Of a DNA stretch of 53,322 nt, positions 2,569 to 41,228 are shown one piece after another; position 1 is the stretch's first letter; each line of letters begins with the position of its first letter. This DNA is from Neolentinus lepideus HHB14362 ss-1. Lineage: Eukaryota; Basidiomycota; Agaricomycetes; Gloeophyllales; Gloeophyllaceae. The stretch is from NCBI GenBank assembly GCA_001632425.1, contig KV425587.1, forward strand, positions 67,119-120,440. The letters are read 5' to 3'. Under the pieces are notes generated by a model. That model was not told where the DNA came from. It searched no databases and saw only the letters and a program-made list of their open reading frames with translations. The position numbers and the translations under genes are program-made.

Positions 2569-2574
2569 CCCCTG
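2569..2574. repeat. Left target-site duplication CCCCTG
   Basis: This is identical to bases 13039-13044 on the other side of the element. Perfect duplication implies a recent insertion or little decay since. Confidence 0.85.
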
Positions 2575-2612
2575 TATGACGGTTATTCCTGGACATAACA
2601 CCACAAAATCCA
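2575..2612 (+). repeat. Left terminal inverted repeat of the large transposon
   Basis: It begins TATGACGG and contains CTGGACATAACACCACAAAA. The reverse complement of 12999-13038 reads TATGACGG, then CTGGACAAAAATACAAAA. The match is perfect for the first 8 bases and imperfect further in. Confidence 0.8.
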
Positions 2613-2620
2613 AGTCGACC

Positions 2621-2935
2621 CTCAGTGCTGAGCAGTGACGATCGATGACGAATGGTGTGTCATCGCCTGTCACTGCTCAGCACTCATTAGCACCGACCGT
2701 CACTCAGCGGCACCATCCAGCACTGCTCAGCACCGATGACACACGATGCTCAGCGGTGCTGGATGGTGCTGGATGGTGCTCAACGGTGAAACCACTTTCT
2801 TTCTACCGACTACTTCCCACTTCTCAGCACCATCCAGCACTCTTCAGCACCATTCGGCACTCATGAGTCTCTTTCCACCCACTGCACTGCCACTCGCCAC
2901 GGCACCGGTGCTCAGTGGTGCCAGTCAGTGACCAT
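2621..2935. repeat. Left subterminal repeat cluster (GTGCTGA / TCAGCAC units)
   Basis: Many copies of a 7-10 bp unit occur in both orientations: CAGTGCTGAGCAGTGA, CTGCTCAGCACTCATTAGCA, CCAGCACTGCTCAGCACC, GGTGCTGGATGGTGCTGG and CACCATCCAGCACTCTTCAG. The same vocabulary recurs at the other end of the element (12698-12991). By analogy with large fungal and plant DNA transposons, these are probably transposase-binding sites. Confidence 0.8.
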
Positions 2936-3364
2936 CAATGCTCTCAACTCCCCACAAGCCTGCGATCGCCTTGGCTATTCAATATAACCCGCCCCATTTC
3001 TCCCGAGCACCGTTTATACTAGCCAAATATGGGCCACACTTGCCGGCGCACTGGAGCCGTGCCCGCTCTGAGTCTCCGGCCTCGCCAGCCACACAAACAC
3101 ACTCGCACCTCTGCCCTTATAGATCCTTAATAGATATCCATCTCTGTCCTTGTTGACCTCCTTAGTACACATGTAACTTACTGCTACTCTATCGTTAGCC
3201 ATATCTGAGCAATCAATGCACCTCACAATTGTATCCACAATCTATTACAATCCCCAATTCCTTCCGTGTCCCATGCGACTTTCTCATTCCTTCATTTAGC
3301 GAGTGCCTCCCGAAGTCACTCTCCTCAGCCACACCTGCTTCAACCCTACATTTACTATCCACCC

Positions 3365-5182
3365 ATGGACATCTTGCGAAATTTCCGAACCGGCTACCGT
3401 CTCCTCTGCGACGATGTCCGTGTTGCAGCTCTTACTCAAGTTGGCGACCCACAAAGACTCGACAGTAAGCGCCAAGAAGTCCTCGCATTCATCGCCGCTG
3501 CTGAACAGGTCAGTCCCCCATCTGCGCAGCGCCTTCTATTTGACTTCACGGACATCTAGCATGTCCACCTATTCCCCCCATCCGAGTATCAAACCCTTAC
3601 AGCCAGCATCTCCGCCATGCTAGACTGCCTTGAACAAGCTCGCCTAGCATCCCAAGACCCCATACCTACTCCTACTTTATCAGTCTCCCATACAGAATAC
3701 AATGGCCGCCGAGGCCGCCCCTCCATCCAGATAGACCGGGATTTCCTTGAGGCTGCACTGACATTGAGAGGACCAGCAGGTGTTGCATCGGTGGTCAAAT
3801 GTTCAGCTCGCACCATTCGGCGCCGAGCGCTCGATCTTGGCCTCGTCGAACCCGGACCCCCTGTATACCGAGATGTTGACGATGAGAATGGTAATCCCCA
3901 CCGTGTCTGGACATCGTCAACTGCATCTTTCTCTACCATGAGTGATGACGAGTTAGACGCTCACCTATCTCGCCTCTTGGAAGGGTTCCCGAATTTCGGG
4001 CGCCGTATGATTACAGGTCACTTACGAGCCATGGGGCACCACGTGCAGCGAGAACGAATTGTCGCTTCATACCTTCGTGTCCATGGTCTTCCCCGCATCT
4101 TTGGAGACCGGCGCATACTCCGCCGCAAATATCATGTGGCGGGCGTAAACTCGCTTTGGCATCATGACGGTCAGCATGGTCAGTCCCCGAGTCTAGCTAT
4201 CAGCCTCGTGGAAAGTCACTCACCTGCTTCACGCTACCAGCACTCATTAGATGGAAGCTAATTACACATGCGTTCGTCGATGGAAAGTCGAGGCTTATAG
4301 TCGGCATTGGTGTCCACAACAACAATCGGGCCGCCACAGTATTGTCCCTGTTCCTAGCGTCTGTCGAACGCTATGGCGCACCCAGCCGCGTGCGTGGTGA
4401 CCATGGGACCGAGAACGTCGATGTGGCCCATTGGATGGAAGCCGTTCGAGGTCCTGGACGCGGGTCGTATATTTGGGGCAGGTTGGTTTGGTAGCTTAGC
4501 ATTATAGTGGTTATGGCAGTCCCTAATACCTCACCGGCATTGCAGGAGCGTCCACAACACCAGAATCGAGCGCCTGTGGTATGATGTTACTCGAGGCTAT
4601 GGAATAAAGTGGAAGAATTTGTTTATTGACCTTGAACTTTACTATGGTCTTGACCCAGAGAATCCCTACCACATATGGCTCTTACACCTTCTCTTTGTCG
4701 ACACCATCAACAGCGACGCCCAAGAGTGGGCAGACACTTGGAATTCCCACACAATCGAGCTTGACGGACAAAGGAATCGTAGTCCCAGAGACATGTTCTT
4801 TTTTGGGCTTGTAGAAGATGGTGCTCGCGGTCTTGAATGGGTTGCCCGTCCTGCTGATGAAGAGATCCCTGAAGATGAGTTGGTTGGTTATGGCGTGGAC
4901 TGGGAGGCATTGGAGAACACTCGGTTGATGGAGCACTTGCTAACAAACAACCCGAATGAATGGGAAGAACACAATCCTTTCGCACCCATCAACCAGCCAG
5001 AGAAACTCTCGCACGTAGAGTGTGAACCGCCTGAGTCACCATTCGACGATGAGGCTACCATGCATATTAAGTGCTTGGTAGATGAGCGCGTCCCCGGGCC
5101 ATGGCGGAATATGGATGTGTGCAAGTTGGTGTGGCAGCACGCAATGGATGTCGTCCAGACTCTATATCAAGCAGACAGATAG
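3365..5182 (+). CDS. DDE integrase-type transposase (546 aa, 4 exons)
   Basis: Exons: 3365-3508, 3560-4178, 4241-4481, 4546-5182; the spliced frame is exact. Residues 99-148 form a basic helix-turn-helix region (GRRGRPSIQIDRDF, then CSARTIRRRALDLGL) expected to bind element ends. The catalytic core follows: Asp251 in WHHDGQH, Asp308 in RGDHGTENVD, Glu343 in HNTRIERLW, with 34 residues between the second Asp and the Glu, as in retroviral/IS3 integrases. HAFVDGKSRLIVG and GPGRGSYIWGRSVHN are conserved in eukaryotic integrase-core transposases that I recognise. The C-terminal 200 residues include an acidic segment. The ATG at 3365 is chosen because the frame is closed above it and MDILRNFR starts a well-formed exon. 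The gene converges on the 232-aa gene (160 bp apart). The splice within the first catalytic motif (after H254) gives HALIRW. Confidence 0.9.
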
Positions 5183-5343
5183 GCAGACGGACCCAAGGGC
5201 AAAGATGCGAACTGGTCGAACTTGGATACATAGGCGCCCACAACCAACTGTGGCACCGCATGCTTCGTTTACGTATACTATGTACTCGCGTTGTTGTTTC
5301 TATGTATAACTCGAATACACGGTAGTTTCTTCATGCAGCCACG

Positions 5344-6296
5344 TCAAGGCCATCCTCCCTCCCCCCGAATCCTCTCCATTTCCTCCTCCAGGTAGCGGCG
5401 AGTCAATCGCGGAACCTCGACACCCTCATCCATGATGCGGTGTCCACTGTGAGGAGCACCAAGGTCAGAGTCTCTCACCCGTCGTGTCTGAACTGATTCA
5501 TACCTTGAGTGGTTTGGGTTGCGACCCATGAGTATGGTGAGGAACCCCCTGGTCAGGTCAGGCCTCTCGGGCCCGCTCGTGGGGCAGATCCAGTCCTCGC
5601 TAAATGCTTCGCGTGAGGATACCACATTGTTTGACTGCTTGGTCGCTCACCTCTCTTCCAGGACCTGATTCCAGAACTCATCGGACATGTGAGTAGGGAT
5701 CATCACCCCCCCTGCATCAGCAACCATCATAACTGGCCTGTTTCATTAACCTCTCGGGTCAGCACTCACAATCAATGCAAAGTTGGTTACATACGGTCCA
5801 GACGTGGACCTCCCCTCGACAACAGGATCAACAAGGTCCAGGGCCATGTAGTAAAATGCCCACAGCCATGTCAGGTCTTCCTCCCCATCCTCGTCATCCT
5901 CATCGCTACTGCTCTCCTCCCCATCCTCTTCAGTTCCCGTGGGACTGGTGGGAGTCGAGGGAACCGCAGTGCTCACTGGATTGGGAGGCAGGTTTGCGGG
6001 ATTGGGAGGTGGGTTTCTAAACTCGGGGCGCAAGTCTGGGCATGGGTGAGCACGCCGTTCTGCACGCAATTACCTGCTAATCACTTACAGATCACAAGCA
6101 TCCGCCACATAGCGCGGACACGATCACGATGGGGCCAATCATATCGGCGAGGTCCGGTGGGAGGCCAAGGATCCTCCTCAGTCATGGCAGTCTCACTCGC
6201 AGCAGATGCACTCGGAGCATTGTGACCCATGCTTGGATTCTCCACTCCGGTGCTATTCGCTGGGAGTTTGGGCTCTGTACGAGGTGGGGAAGACAT
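5344..6296 (-). CDS. Unknown transposon-borne protein, 232 aa (5 exons)
   Basis: Exons in transcript order: 6089-6296, 5770-6035, 5651-5676, 5504-5599, 5344-5446. Introns are 51-93 bp with GT-AG ends, and the frame closes exactly. I do not recognise a family. The N-terminus is Ser/Pro-rich (from MSSPPRTEPK), followed by DWPHRDRVRAMWRMLV, a Pro-rich stretch, an acidic run of about 20 Ser/Glu/Asp residues, then a hydrophobic block LTWLWAFYYMALDLVDPVV. The C-terminal half contains EDWICPTSGPERPDLTRGF and a charged helix RRYLEEEMERIRGEGG. It lies between the transposase (convergent) and the 728-aa gene (divergent, sharing 152 bp). Its position inside an otherwise intact transposon suggests a role in transposition or host interaction, but nothing in the sequence specifies it. 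The 26-bp third exon is the least secure part. Confidence 0.62.
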
Positions 6297-6448
6297 TGGT
6301 GAATGAAGATGGTGGTGGTGGTCAGTCAAAACGTTAATCTTTTCAAATCAGTCTGAATATCAATGGAGATACCGGCGCCACCGGTTGTCTTGTAACAACC
6401 CGCGTTCGCTCGTCAGCCTCCGGTGGATCATTGTTTTGGGTTCTGCTC
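6297..6448. promoter_or_regulatory. Shared divergent promoter inside the transposon
   Basis: This 152-bp gap separates the start codons of the 232-aa (-) and 728-aa (+) genes, so it must hold both promoters. No clear TATA box is visible. A palindromic CCGGCGCCACCGG lies near its centre. Confidence 0.5.
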
Positions 6449-8761
6449 ATGCCCGCTCCAAACCGCCTGGGGCCATCTGCAGTGCGACCAGATCAGCAGG
6501 CCATAGGAGTGCGACGCTCTCAGAGGGATCGCCATCCCGTAATCCGACTCACTTTTGCAGAGGGTTTTGTGCCAGACAGTGTTCCGGTTCAAACGCGCTT
6601 GTCTCAGCCATTGACAGCCAACGCTATCGGCGCCATTACAATGGATGACTCTTGGGGTTTCAATGGGCCGGAATCAGGTGTATATCATTACATTTATGGT
6701 TGACATGCGAAGAGTGGTGCTGATGTCATACATCACAGAGATTAAAGAGGAGGGCCCACGCCAACTCTCGATGACTGAGCCAGCATCTGGGAGTGTCGAT
6801 AGTAGTGCGCCTAGGCTACACTTTCCCCTCCCCGAGGTGTCCCTGTTTGATGGTAGGATCTCTCCTGAGATTGACTGGGTGGACATGCCCGGTAGAGCCT
6901 TCAGCAACCCTCCACTCTCTGACATTGACGAGCTCCACCTGGAGGCCAATGCCACTGGTATTGTCCCGACCACTGGTGCAATTGGTTCCAATGGCGACGG
7001 TGCTACCACTCATGAACCCACACTGATCGGTGACACCCCTGGTACTGCCAGCCCCACCACCACTGGCGACCCTGCGCCTGCTGGCGAGCCCACTCCTCCC
7101 AGCGACGATCTCACCATTGCAACATCAGTGCGTTACGTCCCCATGCCTACCGGCAGCCGGTTTGAATGGGAAGAGATGCGCCATTGGGCCCTTCAGCTGC
7201 ACACACTGGGTTACGTCTTCACTCCCGCCACTGATGACATGAGAGGGCAGCTCCGATCTGCGCTATCTCCCTTGAGATCTGTGCGTGCTGACATCAATGA
7301 GACGCTCGATGTGACTATGCTACCTTCTTCATTCCTTCGCGGCGCCGAGTCCGTCCCGGCGCCTGGGCGGGTGACAGTGATTGATCTGACCAACACCTCA
7401 GATGATGAAGATGACATGCCTGTCAGACTTGTCCCTGGGGATGGCAGATCAATCTTACTCTTTGGTGTGATACGCGGGGGATCACCCCAACACTTTGTCG
7501 AGACCCTCGTCTTGCCCGTGTCAACAAATCCATTGATAAAACAGGTGATTGACTCGATGCTGGCCAATGATCACCATATGGCAGGTGTACTCAGGGAGTG
7601 GGACAACGATGGTGCCTGGTTTGCCACCTCCGCAGTCCCGACAAGGATCAATCTCGTGACATTGGAGTTCATGTCACCTGCACGACAGTTGCAAGTCATT
7701 GGCAACTTCGAAGAGGTTTTCACCGGTCAAATTCACTCCCAGCTATACCGTGTTGCTCCGTACCATCCGGAGACTCGAGCGCTCAATGACATTCATGGTG
7801 CAGGGCCCGTCTATGTGCTATATCTGTCAGATAAGGTATGTCATGTTTCAAGTTCTAACATATCCAATTATTGAATTCTGGCGCGTCCTTTGGTTTCCAG
7901 CCTTTCAGTGAGATAAACACGAGCGCAGGAGGTGGGGTTATTGTCAAGGCTGAGAACAAGGATGACGACTTGCAGGACATCACGTTCGGAGAGCGACCAC
8001 GGCGTGCCCACCACGACACCGCAATGGGGAACCGCACCCTTGTCCCTCCTGCTCTTCCGGAGCCAGTCCGCGAGCGGGCCGGGATGATGGTCACTCCTTC
8101 TCCTGTGGTCTCCGAACCAGGAGATGGTCCCGAGGAGGGAGATGTCATATACGCACCAGACGGCACGCCCATATCATGCGGGCCATTACCCTCAATCCCC
8201 GGGCGTGGCGACTTCAAAGGCGTGCGTAGCAGTGCAGTGATATACTTGCACACTACTTTTGCTGTGGAGTTCGGGCATTTGGAGGACGTGTGTCGGGGAC
8301 GTGGTTCAGCATGGGCACATTACCAGATCGAACTGTCTGCGAGGCGCATTGCTAGTGCCATTGGCATGCCATGGCCGCGTGTTGGCGCAACCCCCGATGT
8401 CCAGCTTTCGAATGGCCTGATCATTACGTATGAGCATCTCGCGAACGCGTATGCACGAGCACTGGGAAGCTTCAAGAATCTTCGGACATTTGTGGCCACC
8501 TGCCGCACGACCTGTGTACGCCTTCGTGGTGACCTGCTTGCCAAGGGCCGCCTCAGCGAGGACAACAAGGCGTTGCGTGGGCTGCTCGAGGCGCTACTGG
8601 CAGGTGACCCTGATCTGCCTGCCTCGCCGCACCCTATCTCGCACACCCCAACGTCCTTGTTCAATGCGGTCAACACATCCCGTGGAGCATTGAAGGGCCT
8701 TTTGGAGGCCTTCAAACTGTCCAACGCCAGTCAGAGTACGTCCACCGGTCGCGACGAATAA
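6449..8761 (+). CDS. Unknown transposon-borne protein, 728 aa (3 exons)
   Basis: Exons 6449-6677, 6739-7835, 7901-8761 splice with exact frame (2187 coding bases). I do not recognise a family. The N-terminus (MPAPNRLGPSAVRPDQQ) is basic; it is followed by a Pro/Thr/Gly-rich linker at roughly residues 150-220. An acidic motif VIDLTNTSDDEDD then precedes a compact globular-looking block (SILLFGVIRGGSPQHFVE, YRVAPYHPETRALND, GPVYVLYLSDK). VIDLT followed by an acidic Ser patch resembles a SUMO-interacting motif (hydrophobic V-I-D-L with an adjacent acidic/Ser stretch), which would fit beside a ubiquitin-ligase-like neighbour; this is inference. The C-terminal third has another globular region (SSAVIYLHTTFAVEFGHLED, AWAHYQIELSARRIA). 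The gene converges on the HECT-like gene, with 101 bp between the stops. Confidence 0.78.
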
Positions 8762-8862
8762 ATCCGTATAGTATTTTTGTCTGCTAGCTGTCTTATTACA
8801 TATAGAAACCAAGGATGAAATACAAGAAAGCCGTCCATGCCATTGACCCGCTGTATGAGACA

Positions 8863-11800
8863 TCAGGCAGCACTGAAGCCCCCAGTACACACCACAAGTT
8901 GCTCATAGAACCAGGCGTCGAACACGGAGGCTTGATCAGGAGTGGTAAGAGGCTCGACAAGCACACTAGCCAGCCATGGCGAGATGGTGATATCAACGGA
9001 ACGATAACAGGTACGTATATCGATTGCGGCGCCCATGTCCACAAGACGGAGTTGTGAATCGCGCGAAATTCGTATCTGTGTGCTTGCATGGGTAAATGCG
9101 ACTACTGGGGATGGCTTTAGGAACCGCTTACCTTTATCTCTGTGGGCAGCGTTGCCGGGCGCAAGGTGGACGCTGTGGTCGCCAAAAGGAACAGTTTGAG
9201 TCGAAACAGCGGGTCATGAGGGTTGAAACCTTCAGGGATGTCACTCATTCCCGCAAGGCCACCGCGGATTGCCGCGTCTTGGCTGGGTACCCCTCGCCCC
9301 TTCAACCAATGCATTACTCGGCCCCTCAGCATATTAACCAGCAGCAAACTCTCTGTCACTCGGGTACATGTGTCTTCCATCTCCCACTGCAAGAATCCCA
9401 GTACGTGATCCACATCTTTGACCTCTAAGTCATACAAGCTGATCACAAACTTCTGCAGCATATCAGTTCTGTATCGGCGCCGCAACAGCTAGATCACATT
9501 AATCAGAACTATGCAGTGATCGCAGTGTGGGGCAACATACGCTTAGCAGGGTTGTCCCATTGCCGAGCGGGATGTCAAAGCCATCACAAAAGGCATGGTA
9601 TTCGGAGGTCTCCCAAGGAGAAACGTGGTTGAGCAAAGCCTTGTTAATGATGGAAGCACGTATCTTCTCATGAACCGCGATTGAACGAGGCCGGCTCAGG
9701 GCAGGGGCCAGCTGTGAGCAACACTTTAGGAATGTGGTTGAGTGGTCTCGGAGGGAGGGGCAACTCACATTCATCTCCAGATACTGGATCCCGATCCTGA
9801 CTGCCTCATCATCCACTGACTGGACAGTATCCGTCCTTCGCATACTAAGCCATGGACGGATGCGCGCGGCAACCTCGGGTTCTAACGACTGGATGATCAA
9901 TGGATCTACAATCACTCCCTTCTCACCAGCAATCACAATGCTCATCCAAAAGGGCGAGATCGCCGTAGGCTCGAGGTTGTCGATCACGACCAGTGCTGAG
10001 GCCGCTCCAGATGTTCTCAGGTGGTTATGACTCTGTCGGTGTGCTGCCGGCCCTAGGAGATCGTAGGGCTCGATGTGTGGGACCCGCCACTGGCCGATAA
10101 CCCCCCAGAACGTGTTGTTACTGACCAGCAGCTCCAGTGCACGGCGAAGAGGGGTGCGTTCGGGACCCTCCCCAACGCCAAGACCCCTGCAGCACAATGT
10201 CAGCAATGAAGATAACAATGATGGATAGATCATCTTACACATGAATCATACGAGAGTGATCGAGAAACGCCCTTGGTGGGAAGGGTGGGTTGAGGCAATT
10301 GACGGAGGTAGGGAAAACCAAATGTGGCTTGGGCCCTTTGTGACTCACATGTTCTAGCAGTCGCAAGATAGTCTGGGCGACATCGGAGTCATTGGGCCCA
10401 TGGATAAAAACCTCATCGCGCTTCGATATTACGACCGAGGACCGCACTAGCTCACTAATATCCTGCAGCTGTTGCAGTGACATGACACGGCTGATGGGAA
10501 GCCCCTTGGACGTCGTGGCAACATTGTTGGTCAAATCAGCCCGGTCGTCCATGGAAGTCAGATCGATGTGAACCAGGGGCGATGGGGCACGGGACTGTTG
10601 GGGCTCGAGAGACTGCGTTGTCGGCGAAGGAGGGGAAGGGCTGTTCACGCGGCGGCGTTGGGTTGCGCGTGGTCCATCAGCACGCTGGAATAGAACCGAA
10701 TGGGGATCAAGAAACAGTGAGTGGTCTCAGTGGAGGGGACATACAGCATCTGACAACGTGCGTCCGCGTGCCTGGCTGAGGAGCTCAGTAATGCACGGAA
10801 AGTCAGGTGAAGAAGGGGGAGAAGGGTCTGCGGGTGGCAAAGCAGAAGGTCGGTCAGATGGCCTATTCTCGGTGCGCGGGGGAGTTGTTAATCTGGGCGG
10901 TGAGACTTGTGGCAGGAAGGATCTGGTCGGGATAGGGATGGAGGAGGATGGTATGGTCGCAGAGGGTTGTTGAGCTATACGGGGGTCTTCCTCATTGGGG
11001 CAACCAACATCAAAGCACGAGTGGGGTTCCTCGCCGATGGGGTAAGACCCTTGAAGAACGTACCATGGGAAGCAAACATGTTGAGGCCCATTGGGTGCAA
11101 TGGGCCCAAGGAGGTGGGCATATCGAGGAGCTGTGAGAGGTGAGGGGGTGAAATCGAGGCATCAGATCCAAGGCGGAGACTCACCAATCCATATAAAGGC
11201 AGCATCCCGGAGCGGGTTCCTTAAACGCGTGTACGACCTTTTCAATTCCGCATGTGTGAAGTTATGTGCAAATAACTGCGGGCAACGGACCAACGAACGG
11301 CCTTTAGTGGGGTCGCCAGCGAGCCGAATTGGACGCCAAAGGAGCTGCGCATAGTTGGTGCTGGCGATAGCGCCTTCAGCATCAGCTGGCCGGTGGGGGA
11401 GAGAGATATGGTTGTCCTGAAGGTGCGAGACGATGAGACCATTGAGCTCTCGCCAGATTGGCTGATCGCCAGCAGGAAGGACCGTCGTGATGTGGAGATG
11501 AGACCTCATGAGCTTCTCGAGCGCGGCGTCGAGGTCTTCATCGCGCCATGAGAAACGGGGTGTGGGTCGTTCCTCCATGTCGTACTCGGGCTGGAGGACA
11601 GGTACAAAATGGAGGTTAATAGTCAAGTACAACGGCGAACAGTAAAATCTCACATTGAAGGGAGAGATAAAGATGTCATAGGGGAGCCCACTGGGAGGAG
11701 CCGACGGGGGATGAAAAGAACGGGGAGCCAAGGAAGAAGCCAGGCGGGCGACATTTATGGCAGCAGCACCGCCTCGGTAGTTTCTTGAAGGGATACGCGG

Positions 11801-12412
11801 GGCAGAGACGACACGAGAGATGGGATGAGGAAGGTGGGGATGGGGAGGCTGATGGTGCGCAAGGTTGAGCTGGGAATCAGTTCGCTGCTGCCTGGATGTA
11901 CCCGCGCGTGGGGCAGGGGCCGAGAAAGGGGTGATGTGCCTGGAGGCATCATCAGATGCAGACAACATAGGAAGCGCGGTGGATGGAGGGAGGGCAGTTG
12001 CCATAGGAGCAGTGGTAGGCGGGGTGGGCTGGACAGGGTTTTGACTGGTGATGGAGGGCGGAGGAGGGAGCATGAGAGTGCTGGTGGGGTGGGAAGGAGG
12101 ACGGCCTGAGGGGGGAGGATGGGTGGCTGACGCCAATGCAGCGGCAACAACGGAGAGGGGCACCGTGGTGGTGTTGCGTAGTGCTATGTGAAGGTCAGGG
12201 GCGTGTGTACACACACAGAAGTCTGATGAATGGAGTGCATACTGAGATGGATTAATTAGAAGGGATATCAAGGGAGATAAGTATGAGAGTAGACATACGG
12301 TTCGGATTTGACGAGTGAGGGGCTCGAAAACTGCGTATTCTGGACACTGGCACTCGACCTTGACGCAACGTCCACGGTGGTGAAGGTGAGCTAGATCTTC
12401 ATTAGACTGCAT
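8863..12412 (-). CDS. HECT-like E3 ubiquitin ligase carried by the transposon, 1036 aa (9 exons)
   Basis: Exons in transcript order: 12299-12412, 11654-12241, 11185-11590, 10745-11130, 10239-10684, 9769-10186, 9541-9723, 9132-9488, 8863-9075. All introns are GT-AG and the frame is exact over 3111 bases. The N-terminus has a Cys/His cluster (CVKVECQCPEY, then CVCTHAPDLH), then a Pro-rich linker, then a globular block starting PRFSWRDEDLDAALEKLM. From about residue 650 the protein follows a HECT-like domain known from Agaricomycete genomes: GLGVGEGPERTPLRRALELL, HAFCDGFDIPLGNGTTLL, LEVKDVDHVLGFLQW, HWLKGRGVP, and finally RTCYRSVDIT. The last fits the HECT catalytic-cysteine signature (T-C-x-x-x-[VL]-D-[IL]), putting the candidate Cys at residue 989, 47 residues from the C-terminus. 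Substrate is unknown. A VIDLTSMDD-like motif (HIDLTSMDD) lies before the HECT part. Assignment to HECT is by motif order, not a search. Confidence 0.75.
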
Positions 12413-13038
12413 GGTGCGGGGGAGTGGGGGAAAGTGGGCAACGGTTTGAAGATGGTAATTTTTGAGTCTAGGAGAAGGGAATGAAAGAATGCTGAGGGGG
12501 GAACTGAGCGTCAGGTAGAGAGAGGAAAGGGGGAAGAGACGGGTAAAGAGGGGAATTTTTTAGTCTGGGAGGAGGGAATTAAAATATGCTTACTTAATCA
12601 TCTTGCTCCGGGGAGGAAGTCCGAAAGGCGGCGAGAAAATCTCGTGCGATCAAGTAGATGGGTGGTTGGTAGAGTCCAGGAGGTGGCTGTGTAACACTCG
12701 GTGGCACCAGTGCCGATCAGTGCTAGTGAGTGCTGAAGACTTACGAAGTTGGAGTGGCTGTGCGAGAAGCTGGGTCCGGCACTGATTAGCACTGATTAGC
12801 ACCAATGGTTGGGCTCAATAGCAGGCACTGGTGCTAATCGGTGCCGAGCAGTGCTAATGAGTGCTGAGTGGTGCCGAGCAGTGACAAGCATACAGAGTGT
12901 AGTGACAGATAGTGCTGATCGATGACAGTGAGTGCTAATGAGTGTTAATTGATGCTACTCGATGACAAACAGTGCTAGTGAGTGCTGATCGAGAACCTGG
13001 TATACGTTTTGTATTTTTGTCCAGTACGGTCCGTCATA
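12413..13038. repeat. Right subterminal repeat cluster and terminal inverted repeat
   Basis: The stretch upstream of the HECT-like gene holds purine-rich sequence to about 12690. From 12698 to 12991 come many GTGCTAA/GTGCTGA units (GCACTGATTAGCACTGATTA, GCTAATGAGTGCTGAGTGGT, GACAGTGAGTGCTAATGAGT), the same motif as at the left end. The terminal repeat occupies about 12999-13038 and ends CCGTCATA. It also must contain the promoter of the HECT-like gene. Confidence 0.78.
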
Positions 13039-13044
13039 CCCCTG
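13039..13044. repeat. Right target-site duplication CCCCTG
   Basis: This copy is identical to bases 2569-2574. Confidence 0.85.
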
Positions 13045-36317: not shown

Positions 36318-39300
36318 ATGCAACAACCCGATGACCCTCAGCTGCACCAGTCTGGTCCTGTAGGATTCGAGAATATACTGAACCCGGCTAGCCCTGTCAA
36401 CAGCACTCCGAGCAGTCCCAAACTCCTGATAAAACTTCCGCCGTTGATGATACCTAACCTGCGACGATCGACGCGCCAGAGGACAGCATCGCTGGGCACA
36501 CAGCCGTCTGGCTCCGAGTATCACGAATCGGACGGCGGGATGGACGTCGACGACAGCATACCTGTAGCGAAAGCTGAAGATGAAGAGGAGGAAGAGGAGC
36601 CGGTCGAGTACGCGGTGACGTCGCGTGGCAGGCGGATCCAGAAGAAATCGTACCGCGAGTCAGCGAGCGAGGACGGGGGTGACGGCGACGGCGACGGCGA
36701 GGATGGACTCGCGCCATTGGGGCGCCGTGAAGATGTCGACGTAGAGGGCGAGGATGAGGAGCAGCCGCGGTACCCGCTGCGGCGGCTGACGCGGGGTGGG
36801 GTGAAGAACTTGAACGGGTTTATCGTGAGCGACGAGGAGGGCGAGGCGGGGATCGGGCGGTACGACACTCGGAGCAGGAGCAAGAAGCCGGTGCAGTCGG
36901 ACGGCGGGCACGAGGGCGGGCGGTTGACGCGTCAGCGCGCTCAGGCGCCGCGCAGACTGACGAGGACGCGGTCGGGGCGGCGAGTGCGTACGCGTACGCG
37001 AAATAACGACGCGGGGGACGACGGGTACATCGACGAGGCGTCTGATGCGTCTCAGAGTGCGGGCGACTCGTTTGACGAGGCGCCCAAGACGAGTCCAGAA
37101 CCGGAGCCAGGACCAGAACCAGAGATGGAGGCGGATCTGGATGCCGAGGGAGAGATCGATGTCGAGGAGAAGGACGGCAGGCCGTACGCGCTGAGGCAGA
37201 GAGCCAAAATCAATTACGCGATTCCACCTCCACTGGAGGAGATGCGGGCACCGTCGCCGAAGCGGGCAGCGCCGCGGGCCACAGTAAGGAAGAATGGTGG
37301 ATGGGGCGGACGGAGCAAGCCCCCTGGATGGAGTGCTACAGGCGCGGAGCTGGGTCGATGGATGGGTATGGGTGGCGACGATTCGGTACGTGACAACTGG
37401 ATGGCCTCATGACAATACCTTAATGACGGTCATGTCAGGACTCGGATTACGCCACTAGGACACCGCGCAAACCGTTCGGCGGGATCGCGGGTGCGGCCAA
37501 TATGAGTGGTGCTTTGGCGGGCGGTGCTGGTTCTGGAGGTGGTGGCTTGTTCCCCACTGATCTGGCGGCGGCGGCAGGTACTCCGTCCAACTTTGGTAAA
37601 GTTGGCGATGTTGGTACGCTGTCGCTACATTAACAATCCTGCTGTCACACTGATGAATGCCCTTGCAGCTCTTGCCGACACTGATCCACTTGGAACCAAT
37701 CAGAACGTGTCTTTCGACGAAGTAGGAGGGTTGGACGAGCGTTCGTGATCTCAACTTTGATTCATCTTTCCGTGTCTTACTTTGCTGTGCTATCAGACAT
37801 CAATTCCTTGAAAGAAATGACGGTGCTCCCGTTGCTCTACCCCGAAGTCTTCCAGAGATTCAGTGTCACTCCACCAAGAGGCGTACTCTTCCATGGCCCT
37901 CCTGGAACGGGAAAGACGCTACTCGCACGTGCTCTGGCTGCCAGCTGTCGGTCCAATGGACGGGGTATTTGTGAGTCTGTTACAATACATTCAATCCACC
38001 CACGTTCCGATTGCATTACCCAGCGTTCTTCATGCGCAAGGGCGCTGACTGCTTATCCAAATGGGTCGGTGAGGCAGAACGTCAGCTTCGTCTCCTCTTT
38101 GAGGAAGCAAAGAACTCGCAGCCCAGTATTATCTTCTTCGACGAGATTGACGGCCTTGCCCCCGTTCGCTCCTCCAAGCAAGATCAGATCCATGCTTCGA
38201 TAGTCTCCACTCTCCTCGCGCTAATGGACGGCATGGATAATCGCGGCCAGGTAGTCGTTATCGGTGCGACCAACCGGCCGGATGCCATCGATCCTGCTCT
38301 AAGGAGACCGGGGAGGTTTGACAGGGAGTTTTACTTCCCATTACCAAAATTGGAGGCAAGGGAGAAGATCTTGAGGATTATGACGAAGAAGTGGGCTGGG
38401 TGGGAGGGGCAGAAGGCAGAGGAGAATGTTAAGGGGCTGGCCAAGGCTACGAAGGGATATGGAGGTGCTGACTTGCGGGTAGGTGATTATTTCGTTAGAT
38501 TCATCGGGAGACTCATAGGTGCTGCAGGCCTTGTGCACAGAAGCGACGCTGAATGCTGTACAGCGCCGATATCCCCAGATTTACACGTCTACAGAACGAC
38601 TGCTGTTGAACCCGGAGACTATCCAGGTGGAGCTTCGTGATTTTATGATTTCCGTCAAAAGTGCGTGTTTGAGATCTGACGCCTTGGTATTACTTGTGCT
38701 AATGCCTAATTCCGTATTGTAACAGAAATTGTCCCTTCGTCTGCTCGATCTGCATCGTCGACGGCACAGCCGCTGCCAGTACAGCTCGCACCTTTGCTGC
38801 AGGACGCGCTGGATCGAGTCAAGGATGCTATTTCGAAGGTGCTGCCTGTTAGTAAGAAACGGACAGCCTTGGAAGAGGCGGAATATGAGGATGAAGGGGA
38901 GGATGGAGCGCTTGAACGCGAACTGATGCTGCAATGTGGGTCGACTCACCATACGCTCTCATGACGTACTTATAGGCTATCATACTATAGCTATGGAGTC
39001 GTTACGGGTCTATCGACCACGGATCGTTCTTCATGGACCTGTTGGGATGGGTCAAGGCTATGTCGCTGCAGCAGCCTTGCATCATCTCGAGGGATATAAC
39101 ATACAGAGCATGGATCTCGGAAACCTCATGGGTGACTCAACTAGAGTGAGTTAATTGTTATCTATCTCTCTTTAAGTCTGACTCGGAATTTAGTCGGTGG
39201 AGGCGGCCATCGTGCAACTCTTTGTGGAGGCGAAACGAAACCAGCCATCTGTGGTGTACATTCCCTCTCTTGTAAGTTGGTGCGCCGCTGTCTCGGAAAC

Positions 39301-41228
39301 GTCCCGGTCGACAATACGCGCCATGATGGACACTCTGTCTCCCTCTGACCCTATTCTGCTTCTTGCTGTCGTTGATGGACATTTCTCCGAACTACCTCGA
39401 GATGTTCGGGCATGGTTTGGTGTTACCCGAGACAATCGAGTCGAGCTGTCTCTACCTGACAATGACAAGCGCGAGGTCTTCTTCCAAGGGCTTCTTGACG
39501 ACATCCGGAGACCACCTAATCAATTCCCTGACGGTGTCAAGCGTAAGAAGCGGGTACTTGAGGAGCTTCCTGTCGCCCCTCCTTTGCAGCCGAGACAGCC
39601 AACAGCGGCAGAGCTTGCTCTTCAAGAGGACAACGATCAGAAGATTATCACGTTGTTGAAGTACCGACTAGGGCCTATCTTAACTGAACTGAAGCGGAAG
39701 TTCAAGCGTTTCACCAAGAGAGCCACGGTATGCGTATTCTAGCTCATGCATTCCCTCCCTCATACTTTTCTCGACATAGGAGGAGTACGACTTCAACAGC
39801 CAGGCGCCAGTCCCTGAGATCCAAGTCACCGATCACACTGAGACCGTCACCAAAACCATCGAGGTGCAGGGCAACGACGGCGCAGTCACTCAGACGGAGC
39901 AGGTCGAAGTCGTCGAGTCTCATGCTGAGAATGAAGTTGCAGCAGGACTTCAAGTAGCTCAGTTAGAGCCGCAGTTATTTGACATGGACCTGGAAAGGAT
40001 GCACGTGGAGTTGTACAAAGGGAAATATCTGACGCCTTCGCATTTCTTGCAAGACGTCGAGAAGATGGTTCACAATGCTCATGTGCGAATGCATGAAGAT
40101 CCTGATAGGCTCTTCAAAGCTCAAGCCATGTTGACAGCTGCTCAAGTCAGTATGCAAGAGTTCGATCCTCAGTTCACTCTGGAATGCGAACGGATGGCTG
40201 GTCGAGAAAGAAAAAGGCGTGAGGCAAGGAAACGTGCCAAGGAAGAAGAGAAGGCTCGAGAGGCAGCTCAGAGCGGTGTTAACTCGCGAGGAAGTTCACA
40301 AGGAATACGCCGCAGCGCTCGTCACAATGGTCAACAACCAGAGATATCGATAACAGATCCTCTGTTGCTGGAACGCAGACTGAAGAGGCAGCGACCGGAC
40401 GAGGTGAATGGGGTGAACGAGGCGGCTCCGGATGTCGAGCAGTTTGGCGATGACGCAGAGGACGATCGGGCCACCAAGAGGTCTCGTACCGCCATGAGTG
40501 AAGATGATGAACCTGATCCCCTTGATTTAGTTGGGCGAGCCTCGTCTGTCTTGCGTCCTAATGGTGTTCGCTTCGCTCCTGAGGCCGAGCCAATGCCTCC
40601 TCTCGCAAGCTTCATTCATGAACGTGATGGTGCTTGTAGCCCCGTGGCTCCCAGTACACCTAATCGGCGACCAGTCTTGGAGACACCTCCATCTCCGGAG
40701 TCTCCGAAGCGTATCGTGGACTTCGAACATCCCCGCGGACCATCCAACCAGGGCAACTTCCTCGTCAATGGATTCGTGTCGCCTTCCCCTTACGATATCT
40801 CGACTCCGGTCAGAAACTCCGTGCATCGAAATGGCACTACCACACCTCAAGCTCTCAATAGCCCTATGCCAGTCGACACAGAAGCTGTGGTAGACGAACG
40901 TGCACCTCTAACGGCCCCTGCTGTCGAGAACGAAGCCGTGGCTGGTATGCCAACTTTCTCGGACCCCATGGACGTAGCGCGATCTATTTCGCCTGTTCAT
41001 CCTGACTTCCACGTGGACGAGGATTTCCTGGCCAGTCTCAAAGATGACCTTGTCAAGGACACCGGTCTTCTCAATATTGAGCAGTTGGAACAGCTTCGTG
41101 CTTCATGCTTGGGTTGTGTCTGGCACCACCGATTCGACTGGGATCGTGATGCCCTTATAAAGGAGTTGAAAGGAGTTGTTGAGGATTTCATCGATCAGGT
41201 TTCACAAGAGGACATGGTTTCTGAGTAA
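36318..41228 (+). CDS. YTA7: Yta7/Abo1/ATAD2-type bromodomain AAA ATPase (about 1474 aa, 10 exons)
   Basis: Nuclear ATPase that handles histone H3-H4 and regulates nucleosome density. Exons: 36318-37385, 37439-37613, 37669-37740, 37797-37970, 38024-38478, 38528-38660, 38726-38935, 38991-39145, 39194-39727, 39780-41228; frame exact. The N-terminus (residues 1-400) is acidic and Arg-rich (PLRRLTRGGVKNLNGFIVSD). AAA1 begins VSFDEVGGL, with Walker A GPPGTGKT at 472-479, Walker B IIFFDEID at 532-539, sensor IGATNRPDAIDPALRRPGRF and ISFFMRKGADCLSKWVGEAE. AAA2 has the degenerate Walker A HGPVGMGQGY, as usual in this family. The bromodomain-like region contains FDMDLERMHVELYKGKYLTP followed by HNAHVRMHEDPDRL. 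A long disordered part and a final helix bundle (NIEQLEQLRASCLGCVWHHR) end the protein. The start may instead lie in an upstream exon at 36133. Confidence 0.93.

Follow-up and report, generated by a model that had tools for sequence, protein, structure and literature searches.

In silico analysis of a 53,322 nucleotide stretch of the genome of Neolentinus lepideus HHB14362 ss-1 (assembly GCA_001632425.1, contig KV425587.1, here C37, positions 67,119 to 120,440 of the forward strand; the whole stretch is referred to below as the window) established that positions 2575-13038 represent a real, well-bounded transposon of 10,464 bp. Very probably it is a DNA transposon of the IS3EU type that carries four predicted spliced genes and is likely autonomous; for its transposase, cleavage at the TATGACGG and CCGTCATA ends is predicted. 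The features of the element, in window positions, are as follows.

2569..2574, no strand: left target-site duplication (TSD) CCCCTG, exact, read from the sequence
2575..2598, + strand: left terminus TATGACGG with imperfect terminal inverted repeat, from inverted-repeat comparison
2623..2945, both orientations: subterminal arrays of the left end, made up of 10-bp units (consensus CRGTGCTRAT), 19 pairs at an exact 10-bp spacing
3365..5182, + strand: gene 1, transposase, 546 aa, 4 exons (3365-3508, 3560-4178, 4241-4481, 4546-5182), from splice model, Pfam rva_4 match and homologs
5344..6296, - strand: gene 2, 244 aa, 5 exons (6296-6089, 6035-5795, 5737-5651, 5599-5504, 5446-5344), no known family, predicted splice model
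6449..8761, + strand: gene 3, 728 aa, 3 exons (6449-6677, 6739-7835, 7901-8761), no known family, predicted splice model
8863..12412, - strand: gene 4, 1072 aa, 7 exons (12412-12299, 12241-11185, 11130-10745, 10684-10239, 10186-9541, 9488-9132, 9075-8863), no known family, N-terminal Cys/His motif, predicted splice model
12708..12989, both orientations: right subterminal arrays of the same CRGTGCTRAT units, 15 pairs exactly 10 bp apart
13015..13038, - strand: right terminus CCGTCATA with imperfect terminal inverted repeat, from inverted-repeat comparison and genome pattern search
13039..13044, no strand: right TSD CCCCTG, exact, read from the sequence

Termini and copies of the family

An initial annotation of the window had placed the TATGACGG/CCGTCATA ends and the CCCCTG duplication at these positions, and both were confirmed exactly. 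The arms of the short, imperfect terminal inverted repeat span 25 nt (2574-2598 and 13015-13039, which take in one outer base on each side) and are 76% complementary. A DNA search of the 33.8-Mb assembly (168 contigs) with the whole element returned 14 matches outside the window, while a search with the 172 bp right end identified six loci, namely the window and contigs C6, C50, C67, C42 and C2. Three of these other copies retain both ends:

C6, 27578-28106, 529 bp: both ends, exact TSD CAATTG
C42, 222270-223221, 952 bp: both ends, exact TSD GGCTGT
C50, 3410-11582, 8,173 bp: both ends, exact TSD CCAAAG

Further copies with different 6-bp duplications, for which the initial annotation had proposed to search, are thus present in this genome. 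All three start with TA and finish with TA; the left terminus TATGACGG recurs in C6, with the variants TATGATGG in C42 and TATAACAG in C50. An exact 6-bp TSD was found at all four loci of the family with both ends, the window included, and as C67 and C2 hold a right end only, the duplication is testable in three of the five other copies and fits in all three. The duplication is taken to be 6 bp because exact 6-bp repeats flank both ends in C6, C42 and C50; a 2-bp TA duplication was excluded, as these repeats lie outside the TA ends. None of the three copies carries the genes of the element. C6 aligns to it over approximately 268 bp at the left end and 189 bp at the right, and represents a short non-autonomous relative that has retained little beyond both ends, while C50 is a C6-like non-autonomous copy whose interior holds approximately 7.7 kb of other DNA. 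This insert carries an open reading frame (ORF) that may encode a MULE-type transposase. C42 is nearly free of CpG (observed/expected 0.06) with a TpG/CpA excess of 1.69, as long-methylated DNA would show, yet the left end of C6, which is 95% identical to that of C42, belongs to a copy with a CpG observed/expected value of 0.60.

A 25-bp right-end pattern allowing up to three mismatches occurred at eight sites in the genome, as compared to none in a reversed control. Two right-end-like sites additional to the family, C44:28589-28613 and C69:3897-3921, each have three mismatches and lack 10-bp arrays within the 1.3 kb retrieved per site, and are perhaps the ends of further IS3EU-like families.

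The transposase and the predicted gene models

As the initial annotation had proposed, the four intron-containing genes have unbroken spliced frames: all four models are open (546, 244, 728 and 1072 aa), with 15 introns of 51-65 nt that are GT..AG throughout. The longest stop-free frame in the element spans 465 codons, as compared to 177 on average and at most 337 in 200 shuffles.

The product of gene 1 matches Pfam rva_4 (E 5.9e-61) and, below the family cut-off, rve (E 1.7e-6). From a set of 5.8 billion proteins, 405 homologs were identified among 7,997 scored candidates, the best being 55% identical over 99% of the length, and the splice model is supported by this near full-length match. 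Named genera among the 120 homologs listed of the 405 include Favolaschia, Mycena, Trametes and Ganoderma, and we recognise the named genera in this list as all being agaricomycete fungi. Homologs matching over the whole length are present in many mushroom fungi. A catalytic triad of the DD34E type (D251, D308, E343) is invariant in all 18 aligned sequences, which comprise the protein of the window and 17 homologs out of the 120 listed. NCBIfam comparison gave IS481 (4e-10) and IS3 (4.1e-5) scores far below the curated cut-offs, as one would expect for a putative eukaryotic offshoot. Residues 1-250 contain three cysteines and no C-x2-C upstream of the core, and a comparison of the transposase profile with Protein Data Bank (PDB) sequences returned nothing credible.

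Phased 10-bp arrays inside both ends

The subterminal arrays comprise 44 CRGTGCTRAT units over both ends, the TG being invariant through the choice of motif. Pairs of units spaced by exactly 10 bp number 19 at the left and 15 at the right, as compared to averages of 0.05 and 0.04 over 500 single-base shuffles of each end, and motif-free autocorrelation likewise peaks at a lag of 10 (0.50 and 0.47 at the ends, 0.26 in an interior stretch). Such pairs are also found in the family copies (26 in C6, 22 in C42, 3 left and 13 right in C50, 13 in C67 and 8 in C2). As 10 bp corresponds to approximately one helix turn, each array could be occupied by a protein along a single face of the DNA. Narrow literature searches brought up no paper on phased 10-bp arrays in IS3EU, and the portions of IS3EU descriptions consulted are silent on them.

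Gene 4 and its relatives

Gene 4 has no Pfam match, and its sole relative found in the genome lies at C67, adjoining another right end of the family. This diverged relative backs residues 1-861 of the predicted protein. Across 791 aligned codons the pair shares 68% amino acid identity, with a nonsynonymous divergence (dN) of 0.23 and a synonymous divergence (dS) of 1.68; the ratio of 0.14 is rough as dS is near saturation, while the excess of third-position differences is clear (0.22/0.17/0.55 by codon position). This codon pattern shows purifying selection on gene 4. Six stop codons, some possibly in introns, lie within the stretches of C67 that were matched, and this relative looks broken. 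Searches of the 5.8-billion protein set found no relative of gene 4 over its whole length at E up to 0.001, nor of residues 640-1064 at E up to 0.01, the candidates with the most common words having been scored in each case (7,986 and 7,991); mushroom proteins are present in this set, as the 405 transposase homologs came from it. The last 404 residues gave nothing credible against PDB sequences, and a single-exon structure model had a mean predicted local distance difference test (pLDDT) score of 35.8 and was not used.

The N-terminus of gene 4 carries the motif C-x4-C-x-C ... C-x-C-x-H-x5-H. The same order of residues opens an ORF in C13, C106 and C2, and in C98 with one position off the pattern. 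These four contigs are among the six with transposase loci outside the window that are described below; the remaining two (C62 and C9) are partly unreadable. In the 158 kb of fetched sequence, which includes the rest of the window, the pattern has five matches (gene 4, its C67 relative, C13, C106 and C2) and none in five shuffles, and all five loci hold an IS3EU-like element or relic. This distribution suggests that the motif of gene 4 may be homologous to that of the ORFs in the other elements. No Pfam zinc-finger family was matched by the Cys/His pieces, and zinc binding by the motif would be a guess.

For the C-terminal half of gene 4, the idea of a HECT ubiquitin ligase, which a TC motif had suggested, was rejected. 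Gene 4 has no match in Pfam; a genome search with the HECT model gave 20 matches, none in C37 or C67; and comparison of gene 4 with a profile of four host HECT domains scored 15.3, no higher than the average of 100 shuffles (15.3), the best of which reached 20.7.

Genes 2 and 3

Genes 2 and 3 match no Pfam and no NCBIfam family, and these predictions are based on open frames and splice sites. The last exon of gene 3 had no match among viral contigs, and a single-exon structure model of this gene (mean pLDDT 33.1) was not used. Our best guess is that genes 2 and 3 specify element-borne accessory or anti-silencing proteins.

A second IS3EU-like lineage in the same genome

The genome contains at least seven transposase loci, in the window and at C13, C62, C9, C106, C2 and C98. 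The six others are 33-59% identical to that of the window over the matched pieces, and in a midpoint-rooted tree of the transposases of this genome with 30 of the 120 listed homologs they form one clade (100/100), apart from the window protein and the 30 homologs. A second full-length element is located at C106:72724-82194 (9,471 bp, ends TATGACGGTCC, exact TSD GTCACT). It resembles the element of the window in being IS3EU-like, in its ends, and in having a 6-bp TSD, an rva_4-type transposase and further ORFs, but differs in length, in the absence of 10-bp arrays at the ends, in the identity of these ORFs and in the clade of its transposase. No pairs of 10-bp units at this spacing were found at either C106 end or in two C13 stretches, the left one of which is possibly not a true terminus. 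One C106 ORF (78380-78928), with a match to Pfam 2OG-FeII_Oxy_3 below the cut-off (E 0.037) and no hit among PDB sequences up to E 1, looks like a TET/JBP-type 2OG-Fe(II) oxygenase. The occurrence of a TET/JBP-like ORF in an IS3EU-like element may be a new pairing here, as the TET+ lineages listed for Agaricomycotina in the available text of PMC12730594 do not include IS3EU.

C13:207464-210026 and C62:101718-104280 are 98.2% identical over 2,563 bp and have the same neighbouring ORFs, which indicates that this second IS3EU-like lineage was copied fairly recently, and more recently than that of the window. A BTB-like reading of one gene in the other IS3EU-like elements was discarded, the single piece scanned having no Pfam match. 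Elsewhere in the window, frames at 37975-39739 look like an ATAD2/Yta7-type AAA ATPase and are probably an ordinary host gene.

Discussion

The IS3EU-like label given in the initial annotation is supported, on the basis of TA..TA ends, a 6-bp duplication and a DD34E transposase with IS481/IS3 affinity. As described in the sections of PMC10045372 on these elements, complete IS3EU families always have TA..TA termini and the TSD is usually 6 bp; following published descriptions, the element combines these features with an IS3/IS481-akin DDD/E transposase and no upstream HHCC domain. It is quite improbable that it belongs instead to a sister superfamily, such as an unnamed fungal rva_4 lineage. 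The TATGACGG terminus does differ from the TAYGG reported for rust IS3EU (PMC12730594, as far as described there), and NCBIfam scores IS481 above IS3, but the TA..TA ends, 6-bp TSDs, IS3-like core and lack of an upstream C-x2-C match the IS3EU description (PMC10045372), and IS3EU/GingerRoot is itself not separated from IS481EU in that account. GingerRoot, which groups with IS3EU, likewise has an integrase-type DDD/E transposase, 6-bp duplications and mostly TA..TA ends, and the transposases of Ginger1 and Ginger2 are also of the integrase type; in contrast to gene 1, with no C-x2-C upstream of its core, Ginger1 has an N-terminal HHCC domain (all as given in PMC10045372). IS3EU copies have been counted in Ganoderma, according to the part of PMC8955403 that deals with them.

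Large fungal DNA transposons with several cargo genes had been called uncommon in the initial annotation, which overstates the case, as Styx and the rust TET+ IS3EU elements already carry several genes (PMC10853768 and PMC12730594, in the portions describing them). Styx, an IS3EU-like element of Zymoseptoria, has an IS3EU-related DDD/E transposase, four ORFs, 6-bp TSDs and a length of several kb; a four-gene IS3EU-like element is therefore already in print, and the kind itself is not new. Styx is nevertheless 7,927 bp long as compared to 10,464 bp, resides in an ascomycete, and encodes GATA, CCHC and DUF3577 domains in its other ORFs, none of which was found by Pfam in genes 2-4; phased 10-bp end arrays go unmentioned in the portion of its description available (PMC10853768). 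The rust TET+ IS3EU elements share 6-bp TSDs, TA..TA ends and extra genes on both strands, but end in TAYGG..CCRTA with inverted repeats of more than 30 bp, whereas the element of the window has TATGACGG..CCGTCATA and a short imperfect repeat, and they hold a TET/JBP gene between the transposase and alpha-kinase genes, for which genes 2-4 show no Pfam match (PMC12730594, within the text accessible). What is distinctive here is that genes 2-4 are of no Pfam family, that gene 4 is by its codon pattern constrained, and that the ends carry phased arrays.

In the mechanism that we propose, the predicted transposase would cleave the element at its TATGACGG/CCGTCATA ends and integrate it with a 6-bp stagger. 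The phased arrays inside both ends would serve as a platform that is bound along one helix face, by the transposase or possibly by the gene 4 product, and that pairs the ends. Gene 4 would not be idle cargo but would specify an accessory protein that serves the element, given that it is under purifying selection and that its Cys/His motif opens genes of other such elements in this genome. By extension, an IS3EU lineage of mushroom fungi may have evolved a multi-protein transposition system, with a DD34E transposase, a conserved Cys/His accessory protein (gene 4) whose general layout recurs in other IS3EU elements, 10-bp binding arrays in helical phase at both ends, and two further orphan genes that assist the element or shield it from the host; we advance this tentatively and regard it as rather unlikely in its entirety.

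The reading of the element as a likely autonomous IS3EU-type transposon, with the roles proposed for gene 4 and the arrays, has to be weighed against a number of observations that speak against it. No near-identical copy of the element, no second transposase-bearing copy of its family and no empty site were found in the genome; both 1-kb flanks, examined in connection with the empty sites that the initial annotation had also suggested seeking, are single copy except for one 262-bp match of 76%. Definition of the 10-bp motif, like that of the Cys/His pattern, followed inspection of the sequences, and in a profile comparison of the Cys/His motif the score of gene 4 (21.1) equalled the best of 100 shuffles (mean 14.05). 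The C106 element is full length yet free of arrays, so that transposases of this class do not generally require them. No second copy of gene 2 or gene 3 with which to compare the predicted frames was found in the 33.8-Mb genome.

A credible minority explanation is that genes 2-4, of host or foreign origin, were trapped between the ends as passengers and do not contribute to transposition. They match no Pfam family, the model proposed for Styx has that element co-opting two coding sequences (PMC10853768, in the part presenting that model), and TET/JBP genes are described as moving between transposon superfamilies (PMC12730594, in the sections available). Against this, the genome holds no parental copy of gene 2 or 3, and the sole relative of gene 4 stands beside another right end of the family, with the pair showing purifying selection. 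It is likewise rather improbable, albeit not negligible, that the element is an immobile relic that still looks intact, a single insertion unmoved since and with a silent or non-functional transposase. The lack of a close copy would be in keeping with this, as would the match of just 76% over 25 nt between the ends, and the CpG observed/expected value of the element (0.76, as compared to 0.96 for the remainder of the window) may point to a degree of methylation decay. Four open frames, an exact duplication and an intact catalytic triad are not what a relic would lead one to expect, and CpG is less strongly depleted than in C6 (0.60), the C67 stretch (0.60), C50 (0.70, mostly inserted DNA) and C42 (0.06); values for C106 and C13 are 0.81 and 0.69. 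The compared ends of C6, C42 and C50 differ by 16-19% from those of the window, and together with the CpG values this fits a window copy that is younger than its non-autonomous relatives, without amounting to a date or a proof of activity. The recent activity suggested in the initial annotation was accordingly not borne out: the other transposase loci are 33-59% identical, the non-autonomous ends 81-84% identical, and there is no empty site. That last observation would agree with a cluster of ordinary host genes flanked by chance by an inverted repeat and a 6-bp direct repeat, but this reading is refuted by three copies with like ends and their own exact 6-bp duplications, and the transposase between the ends also speaks against it.

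The reading of the element as an IS3EU-type transposon, likely autonomous, bears on a minor superfamily of which few autonomous families have been described, Repbase listing 17 in May 2022 (PMC10045372, in the passage on IS3EU). With its exact ends, four open genes and arrays retained by short relatives, the element is suited to testing which extra genes and end sequences transposition needs. In addition, the genome of N. lepideus contains two deep IS3EU-like lineages with different gene sets and different end architectures.

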